Source: Nitrospirota bacterium
Lineage (GTDB): Bacteria; Nitrospirota; Nitrospiria; Nitrospirales; Nitrospiraceae
DNA length: 64,000 bases
Direction: 5' to 3'
NCBI GenBank assembly: GCA_040757595.1
Contig: JBFLWP010000001.1
Coordinates: 124,001 to 188,000 of the forward strand
In this document: piece by piece, positions 5,719 through 24,619 of the stretch
Numbering within the stretch: the first letter of the stretch is position 1
Layout of the letters: the number at the start of each line of letters is the position of its first letter
The notes under the pieces: model-generated
Told to the model about the DNA's origin: nothing
Seen by the model: the letters and a program-made list of their open reading frames with translations, nothing else
Databases searched by the model: none
Made by a program: the position numbers and the translations under genes

Positions 5719-5795
5719 GCCCCCGTAGCTCAGTTGGATAGAGCAGCGGTTTCCTAAACCGCGTGTCGCACGTTCAATTCGTGTCGGGGGCACCA
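5719..5795 (+). tRNA. tRNA-Arg (anticodon CCU)
   Basis: The 74-nt cloverleaf is followed by an encoded CCA. The acceptor GCCCCCG pairs with CGGGGGC, the D-arm holds AGCTCAGTTGGATAGAGC, the anticodon loop reads TTCCTAA, and the T-loop is TTCAATT. It flanks the accessory block on its left. The next about 110 nt form a structured element also found after tRNA-Pro. Confidence 0.95.
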
Positions 5796-5907
5796 TACCA
5801 ACCTTCGGTTGAGCCGCGCCCTTCGATCAAATGGGCGCGGAGAGGTCCCTTCCCGTAGGGATCGCGCTTAGCGTGTACCGACGCGCTACTCTTGACCTGC
5901 GCGATGG
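5796..5907 (+). ncRNA. Structured tRNA-trailer element, copy 1 (after tRNA-Arg)
   Basis: Directly after the CCA of tRNA-Arg comes TACC, a small hairpin (AACC-TTC-GGTT), then an 8-bp perfect stem CCGCGCCC/GGGCGCGG (5814-5821, 5833-5840) around the loop TTCGATCAAAT. GGAGAGGT, GTACCGAC (5875-5882) and a stem CCGACGCGC/GCGCGATGG (5878-5907, two mismatches) follow. The same order of blocks, with a different but pairing stem sequence, follows tRNA-Pro on the minus strand (24434-24542). Conserved loop plus covarying stem argues for an RNA function, such as a stable trailer, a processed small RNA or a terminator variant. No family is recognised. Confidence 0.55.
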
Positions 5908-5941
5908 AGAACTCCTCCAGTGTTCTACGATTCCCCTCGCC

Positions 5942-5981
5942 TGGACCGCCGGCTTCGATCAAATGCTGACGCAGAGGACCG
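5942..5981 (+). repeat. Partial third copy of the trailer element
   Basis: The loop TTCGATCAAAT recurs at 5954-5964 with flanking CGCCGGC/GCTGACG (one mismatch and one G-T pair over 7) and GAGGACC after the stem, matching GAGGTCC in copy 1. No tRNA precedes it and it runs into the 3' end of the minus-strand pal gene. Confidence 0.45.
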
Positions 5982-6626
5982 TTACCGCATCGCGAAGTGC
6001 GCCCGGCGGTTCTTCTGCCAGCACTCGCTCGTCGGCTCGGCGCAGAAGGGGTGGTCCTTGCCGTAGCTGACGATCCGGATCTGCGCCCCGAGCAGGCCGA
6101 GGTCCTCCAGATACCGTTTGACCGATTGGGCCCGCCGCTCCCCCAGGACCTGATTGTAGGCCTGGCTTCCCCGTTCGTCGCAGTGCCCGGTGATCAACAG
6201 CGTCCAACCCTCCCTCTCCTTGAGCATGCGGGCGTTGGCTTCCAGCACCGCCCGGGCCTCCTTCCTGATCGAGCTCCGGTCGTAGTCGAAGAACACGTCC
6301 CCCAAGGCGCTATTCTCAGAACCCTCCATGGTCCCCCTCGCGGCCGCGGAGGCGGGCGACTCCCCATCCGATCCGCTCGCCCCAGCAGGAGCCACCGGCA
6401 GCACCTCGGCCGGATCGGTCACGCGGACTTCCTGCAGCCGGCCGGGGCCGCTCAATGCCAGGTCCTCCAGCACGGACTCCTGCATGCCTCTTCCACCATC
6501 GCCGGCCTTGGCCAGCATCGCCTGCCCCTCAACCGACACCGAAATCTGCTTGCCCGTGCAGCCGATCACGAGGCTGAGCAGCCCCATCGAGACCAGCACG
6601 ATATGCGCACGCACCGTGGTTGACAT
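5982..6626 (-). CDS. pal: Pal-like OmpA-family outer-membrane lipoprotein
   Basis: The 214-residue protein has an N-terminal lipoprotein signal (LLSLVIGC lipobox; Cys near residue 23), a low-complexity Ala/Ser/Pro linker, and a C-terminal OmpA domain (DVFFDYDRSSIRKEARAVL, TGHCDERGSQAYNQVLGERR, RRAHFAMR). It should anchor the outer membrane to peptidoglycan as part of the Tol-Pal complex. The start at ATG 6626 is chosen because GGGAGG lies at good spacing and the signal peptide follows at once. No tol genes lie nearby, so it may be one of several OmpA-type lipoproteins. The adjacent 6627-6886 stretch holds no convincing gene. Confidence 0.85.
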   Translation of the reverse strand: MSTTVRAHIVLVSMGLLSLVIGCTGKQISVSVEGQAMLAKAGDGGRGMQESVLEDLALSGPGRLQEVRVTDPAEVLPVAPAGASGSDGESPASAAARGTMEGSENSALGDVFFDYDRSSIRKEARAVLEANARMLKEREGWTLLITGHCDERGSQAYNQVLGERRAQSVKRYLEDLGLLGAQIRIVSYGKDHPFCAEPTSECWQKNRRAHFAMR

Positions 6627-24196: not shown

Positions 24197-24433
24197 GGTT
24201 GAAGGACCGTGAAGCGGTGCATGGCAGGGATGTGTCACTGAAGTTGACTCAACCGCGGCCAGGAAGACTCAGGGATCAACGGAAACACTGGCGGTGTTGT
24301 TCCGGCGGAAGACCTTTCGCACTCTCTTGCAGAACCCCAGAAGCCGCTGAGGTCTTCTACTCCCGCGCCAAGAATGATTGGATGGCGCTCGACTATGCTT
24401 AATCGGAGAAAGATCTACGCCAAGGGCCCTTAT

Positions 24434-24542
24434 CCGACCGCCAAGAACTATTTTCTACGGCGGTCGGTACTAGCAAGCTTACTGAGGCAAACCACCTCTC
24501 CGCCCGCATCTGATCGAAGCGGGCGGCTTAGCAAGCTCGGTA
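24434..24542 (-). ncRNA. Structured tRNA-trailer element, copy 2 (after tRNA-Pro)
   Basis: Reading away from the tRNA on the minus strand: TACC, a small hairpin GCTTGCTAAGC, the 8-bp perfect stem CCGCCCGC/GCGGGCGG (24526-24519, 24507-24500) around the loop TTCGATCAGAT, then GGAGAGGT, GTACCGAC (24470-24463) and a 9-bp perfect stem CCGACCGCC/GGCGGTCGG (24467-24459, 24442-24434). Block order, spacing, loop and the short words match the element after tRNA-Arg at 5796-5907, while stem bases differ and still pair. 24197-24433 holds no supported gene. Confidence 0.55.

Positions 24543-24619
<77 letters not shown>

Follow-up and report, generated by a model that had tools for sequence, protein, structure and literature searches.

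A short hairpin element, about 70 nt long, is found behind the CCA of many tRNA genes and of the tmRNA gene, its position being exact to the base, and we consider it likely to be a small non-autonomous mobile REP-like DNA element of the Nitrospirales that targets tRNA and tmRNA 3' ends. The 3' ends of tRNA genes are classic landing sites of phages and islands that carry an integrase. For the element described here no linked enzyme was found.

The units in the window and their consensus

The window, that is, the whole stretch of 64,000 nt that was analysed, contains two well-preserved units, one on each strand. According to the earlier note, the same blocks follow the CCA of tRNA-Arg and of tRNA-Pro in the same order, and both sites agree with this description. 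Behind tRNA-Arg(CCT) the order is TACC, the hairpin CAACCTTCGGTTG, the stem CCGCGCCC/GGGCGCGG with the loop TTCGATCAAAT, AGAGGT, GTACCGAC and a second stem; behind tRNA-Pro(CGG) it is TACC, the hairpin AGCTTGCT, the stem CCGCCCGC/GCGGGCGG with the loop TTCGATCAGAT, AGAGGT, GTACCGAC and CCGACCGCC/GGCGGTCGG. The features are the following:

5719-5795, plus strand: tRNA-Arg(CCT) with encoded CCA (ARAGORN; Rfam RF00005)
5795-5863, plus strand: type A unit starting directly after the CC of tRNA-Arg(CCT) (covariance model, 77.7 bits; sequence)
5799-5811, plus strand: hairpin 1 of this unit, which opens with ATACC and has a degenerate tail (sequence)
5814-5821 and 5833-5840, plus strand: arms of hairpin 2 of this unit, with the loop TTCGATCAAAT at 5822-5832 (sequence)
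5863-5922, plus strand: second module (type B), with the hairpin CGCTTAGCG, TACC, the imperfect stem CCGACGCGC/GCGCGATGG and the tail GGAGAACTCCTCCAGTG (sequence)
5930-5995, plus strand: decayed type A copy with a partly broken stem CCGCCGGC/GCTGACGC (covariance model, 29 bits)
24543-24619, minus strand: tRNA-Pro(CGG) with encoded CCA (ARAGORN; Rfam RF00005)
24478-24543, minus strand: type A unit starting directly after the CC of tRNA-Pro(CGG) (covariance model, 67.1 bits; sequence)
24526-24519 and 24507-24500, minus strand: arms of hairpin 2 of this unit, with the loop TTCGATCAGAT at 24518-24508 and the tail GAGAGGTGGTTTGCCTCAGTAAG (sequence)
24425-24480, minus strand: second module, with AAGCTTGCTAGTACC, a perfect 9-bp stem (24467-24459 with 24442-24434) and the tail GATAAGGGC (sequence; predicted fold)

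Two details of the earlier description have to be amended. The final two bases of the 8-bp stem also belong to the block GGAGAGGT. The 9-bp stem pairs perfectly only at tRNA-Pro; at tRNA-Arg it carries an A.A mismatch and a G.U pair. The partial third copy is real: it scores 29 bits (E = 1.3e-5), the two good copies reach 77.7 and 67.1 bits, and the next best match of the covariance model in the window has 9.4 bits. The pattern TTCGATCARATG occurs five times in the 3.37 Mb genome, one of these occurrences being unrelated and situated within a gene, and the reversed control pattern does not occur. The type B module (GTACCGAC together with the 9-bp stem part) is of a related build, with a small hairpin, TACC, a stem and a GGAGAA..CTCCAGT-like tail, and it recurs behind tRNA-Lys (L003), tRNA-Leu(GAG) and tRNA-Phe of the relatives. 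A gradient of decay away from the tRNA, the nearest copy being the most intact, was considered and discarded: tRNA-Arg shows it, but at tRNA-Met of G004 the order is the opposite.

The consensus reads 5'-ATACC, hairpin 1 (about 5 bp), RCC, hairpin 2 (7-8 bp), GGAKA...CCTCCAGTR-3'. In type A, the loop of hairpin 2 is 11 nt long (TTCGATCANNN) and begins with TTCGATC. As the right end differs from copy to copy, the 3' boundary is fixed less firmly than the 5' boundary. The copies are best explained as a non-autonomous element of about 70-85 nt with two unequal hairpins.

The observation that the stem bases differ between copies and yet pair is strongly supported by two alignments. In alignment A2, 96% of the cells are paired, 8 of the 13 pairs vary on both sides, and the observed value was reached by no shuffle on any measure. 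In alignment A3, comprising the 33 copies that begin at a tRNA CCA, pairing in hairpin 2 amounts to 93%. The number of two-sided changes is 59, while shuffles gave 17 and slid controls no more than 26. The 33 copies have 22 different 5' arms, and the stems are mostly perfect over 7-8 bp. The separation in A3 is weaker on two of the five measures, the number of pairs with a two-sided change (175 of 500 shuffles as high) and the number of pair types (31 of 500). Such strong covariation, together with the conserved loop, would also fit a structured RNA within the pre-tRNA or tmRNA transcript, which would serve 3' maturation or stability or be processed to a small RNA, and would be selected at some tRNAs. 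However, an RNA function does not follow from covariation alone: template switching or the needs of transposition can likewise keep palindromes perfect.

Distribution and insertion sites

For genome searches we used a covariance model built from 21 copies, and further copies at tRNAs were found both in the genome of the window and in its relatives. The model yielded 14 matches in the own genome (G000), 59 in G018, 66 in G004, 73 in G019 and 81 in G011, and the element has multiple copies in many genera. Nearly all named records with a match are Nitrospira or Nitrospirae MAGs; the contig in a record labelled Aquabacterium olei was probably misassigned. A phylum-wide sample gave matches in the own family only, except for one contig of an incomplete genome from another family, and the genomes of the sister family of the same order (f2) carry 0-13 copies each. 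One stray contig aside, the element is limited to two families of Nitrospirales. Viral contigs that were searched contained no match.

No Rfam family besides tRNA was found at the gathering score, and a permissive Rfam scan of the tRNA-Arg site returned tRNA and an antisense tRNA artefact only; hence no known family matches the element. No description of it was found among the searchable open-licence papers either. The element is new to Rfam and to these papers, and it is REP-like rather than a new class of RNA. The earlier note had been prepared to give up its reading if the units had lacked further matches at tRNAs, lacked covariation or belonged to an Rfam family. Matches at other tRNAs were found, the covariation is present, and no Rfam family was hit.

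In the own genome, 6 of the 14 matches have a tRNA CCA as their exact starting point and lie on the strand of that tRNA, whereas about 0.01-0.2 copies are expected there by chance, even among ACCA/TCCA sites. In three genomes together, 22 of 139 copies have their start at a tRNA CCA and share the strand of the tRNA, with the same offset in all but one, and in high-copy genomes the majority of copies lie away from tRNAs. When all trailers were read, partly by eye, a unit was present at the CCA of 7 out of 44 tRNAs in the own genome and 14 out of 43 in G018 (the automatic trailer pattern had overlooked tRNA-Pro-CGG). The occupied tRNAs carry A or T at position 73, so that the site reads ACCA or TCCA (21 of 63 occupied), and none of the 24 tRNAs with G73 or C73 is occupied (Fisher p = 5e-4). 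Some of the same tRNAs are occupied in different genera, Arg-CCT, Pro-CGG, Phe and Gly-CCC among them; at tRNAs shared by two genera, the type of the element is not the same.

The tmRNA has the acceptor/T-arm and the CCA in common with tRNA. Units are situated directly behind its CCA in G000, G002, G011, G022, G024 and G032, and are absent from this position in G010, G014, G028 and G037.

The left edge is well defined, since the unit is preceded by C in 169 of the 179 sampled copies and starts with A in 169 of 179. Marking the insertion point by a caret, the junction is C^A: either CC^A in a tRNA or tmRNA, or CCTCC^A (anti-Shine-Dalgarno), or a point inside other hairpin repeats, including the element's own copies. 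In the tRNA case, the first base of the element restores the CCA. In the second case, the opposite strand carries a gene whose Shine-Dalgarno sequence is complementary to CCTCC. Of the 30 copies examined in f2, about 17 occupy a tRNA CCA, and CCTCC-like sites account for most of the remainder.

That the junction falls exactly at the CCA of so many different tRNAs, and of tmRNA, could also have its cause at the RNA level, if the RNA of the element were joined to the mature CCA end, copied to DNA and recombined back into the genome. In that case, all junctions should be mature RNA ends in the proper orientation. This does not hold for the copies opposite gene starts (CCTCC), in the loops of other repeats or antisense at the tRNA 5' boundary in f2, and we regard such joining as very unlikely.

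Several observations concern particular classes of sites. The 23 sampled CTCC-class copies (e.g. L012, L039, L068, L021) lie directly upstream of the GGAGG of an opposite-strand gene, and are therefore part of its 5' untranslated region. In three f2 genomes (L349, L058, L363) the unit is antisense and exactly at the tRNA 5' boundary, with the flank ..GAGCTACACCGCC^AAACC; this is probably one old insertion common to three genera. In many copies (L116, L135, L152, L173 and others; 89 sampled copies in the class) the unit is held by a larger palindrome, GAGGAGGTAC^ATACC...GTACGTTGAGG, and the two appear to have multiplied as a composite. In L164, L185 and L199, the hairpin-2 loop of the unit is interrupted by another small palindrome (CCCGTCGAGAGCCTCTGGGTCGA or its complement), as though such loops attracted insertions.

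Mobility, trailers and terminators

If the element is mobile, sites lacking it should be found in relatives, and copies should interrupt each other. At L021 in G025, the unit lies behind GCATAACGCCTCC, and the relatives G007 and G035 read GCATACAAGCCTCC^CTGGAT with the unit absent. In this comparison, the single cleanly read one, the insertion lies precisely after GCCTCC^ and no target duplication is evident, with an ambiguity of one base (C); in two other comparisons (L016/L018 with L237; L022 with L238) the divergence is too great to fix the edges. In G025 (L263), a second unit is situated inside the hairpin-2 loop of a first one, and the orthologous unit at the same gene in G007 (L016) is uninterrupted. 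Nested copies are also present in arrays behind tRNA-Leu and tRNA-Gly (L112, L169), and a tandem array of five units follows tRNA-Glu (L011). The spacer between tRNA-Pro(GGG) and surE is empty in G000 and contains two modules in both G018 and G004. Among the possibilities raised by the earlier note, a mobile element targeting tRNA ends is thus supported by the precise empty sites, the nesting, the tandem arrays and the many copies off tRNAs.

The same note had placed a conserved RNA trailer first. A trailer function would fit the exact position behind the CCA on the tRNA strand, the repeated occupation of several same tRNAs across genera and the predominance of tRNA sites in f2. However, if the unit were needed by a given tRNA, it should be consistently present at the orthologous genes. 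Most tRNAs have no unit, both the occupancy and the element type at one tRNA vary by genus (the 7 of 44 and 14 of 43 tRNAs given above come from two genera), most copies of high-copy genomes are off tRNAs, and the empty sites and nesting indicate insertion. Hence the conserved trailer is not supported as the primary explanation, and selection for such a role at some tRNAs seems to us distinctly unlikely.

A terminator-like structure had been suggested as well, and some copies do have G+C-rich hairpins with T-rich stretches behind them, GGTTTTTTGCC for example. In an intrinsic terminator, the stem should be directly followed by a T-run at the transcription end. Here the T-run is several bases off the stem and often interrupted. 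Moreover, at tRNA-Pro(GGG) the true intrinsic terminator, AAGCTGCCCC..GGCAGCTTTTTT or AAGCTGCC...GGCAGCTTTTTT (with TTTT in G004), is kept downstream in G000, G018 and G004, that is, with or without the element. Likewise, in G010 and G037, where the tmRNA lacks the unit, its CCA is followed immediately by a terminator-like hairpin and a T-run, and the tmRNA of G000 retains a similar hairpin downstream of its unit. It is extremely improbable, then, that the elements are the transcription terminators of tRNA genes. Since the terminator persists downstream, the unit at tRNA-Pro(GGG) is probably transcribed within the tRNA precursor.

For a mobile element, repeated insertion at one point would build arrays between the tRNA and its real terminator. 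By implication, many tRNA precursors of Nitrospira would carry structured trailers that need to be removed. In annotation, these copies should be treated as mobile repeats, not as a new class of regulatory RNA.

Possible mechanism and relation to known repeats

Judging by the anatomy, a transposase supplied in trans may recognise the hairpins in folded, single-stranded DNA, much like the enzymes of the REP and IS200-IS605 systems. It would cut at C^A beside a hairpin, and a tRNA or tmRNA gene, with the acceptor/T-arm in front of CC^A, would present it with a comparable substrate. A more specific version, in which an undescribed trans-acting transposition system targets the acceptor/T-arm-CCA end of tRNA and tmRNA, with the TTCGATC of the type A loop imitating the T-loop and CCTCC^A imitating NCC^A, is speculative and in our view rather unlikely. 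Exact mimicry of the T-arm was rejected: the loop sequence fits, but the start of the loop is 22 nt from CC^A in a standard tRNA and 36 nt in the consensus, and other module types are without this loop. For an enzyme search, the hairpins, the C^A junction and the A73/T73 preference provide a defined substrate.

Genes of the Y1 type (RAYT; PF01797) had no match in G004 or G018, which contain about 60 copies each. Among 23 Y1 loci, one (L080) has a copy of the element in the fetched stretch, beside the composite repeat, and this association looks accidental. No transposase was recognised, as judged by eye, among the listed clusters of recurrent neighbouring ORFs, the loci being dominated by the composite repeat class, and no longer autonomous version with the same head was seen. 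With RAYT absent in these two genomes, the GTAG foot lacking and no linked gene recognised, RAYT was rejected as a partner. The mobilising enzyme may have been lost from G004 and G018, or may belong to another family.

Among the closest known systems are GTAG-tagged REP (REPtrons with TnpA-REP/RAYT), which are likewise short, high-copy, intergenic hairpin palindromes with a putative single-strand HUH transposase in trans (PMC3733652, PMC8266576). One TnpA-REP enzyme is reported to cut beside its REP, at CT and at CA (PMC8266576), and the C^A junction observed here is compatible with such cutting. In contrast to GTAG REP, the hairpins are preceded by ATACC and RCC and have no GTAG (GTRG) foot; the element has about 70-85 nt and two unequal hairpins, and forms direct rather than head-to-head arrays; it strongly prefers tRNA and tmRNA 3' ends; and a flanking Y1 gene is not a regular companion, as follows from the two high-copy genomes without RAYT and the single locus mentioned above.

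CGTC-tagged REP are palindromes reported without a dedicated transposase, with stems of 8-9 bp and unpaired tails that fit CCA; they were described mainly in alpha-proteobacteria, and Nitrospira is not mentioned in the text (PMC3733652). They have a CGTC foot and loops of 4-5 nt (PMC3733652), whereas ATACC/RCC and an 11-nt loop are found here, so the element differs from them in both tag and loop. MITEs are likewise small, non-coding, multi-copy and mobile, but terminal inverted repeats were not found here, as the ATACC-hairpin head and the CCTCCAGTR tail are not reverse complements, and the single clean empty site shows no clear target duplication within its one-base ambiguity. Finally, one archaeon has a palindromic motif following roughly half of its tRNA genes; that motif, however, is 18 nt long, is situated at a distance from the tRNA end, was proposed as a maturation signal and is unrelated in sequence to the unit described here.

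Two further kinds of sequence were observed behind tRNAs. The type C subtype has the head and tail of type A, a longer hairpin 2 and loops such as TCTTCATCG..TATCG, and it likewise directly follows the tRNA CCA (L004 and L280 at tRNA-Met and tRNA-Val(CAC) of the own genome; L267, L270, L276 and L278 in G018 and G004). Another conserved motif, CNCCGARCTTGYTTGGCGGGAGCGCG..GCGCGATCCGC, follows several serine tRNAs and occurs in more than one genus (L304 and L311 at tRNA-Ser TGA and CGA of the own genome; L326, L338 and L320 in G018), is also present behind tRNA-Val(CAC) of G018, and may be a third kind of trailer element.
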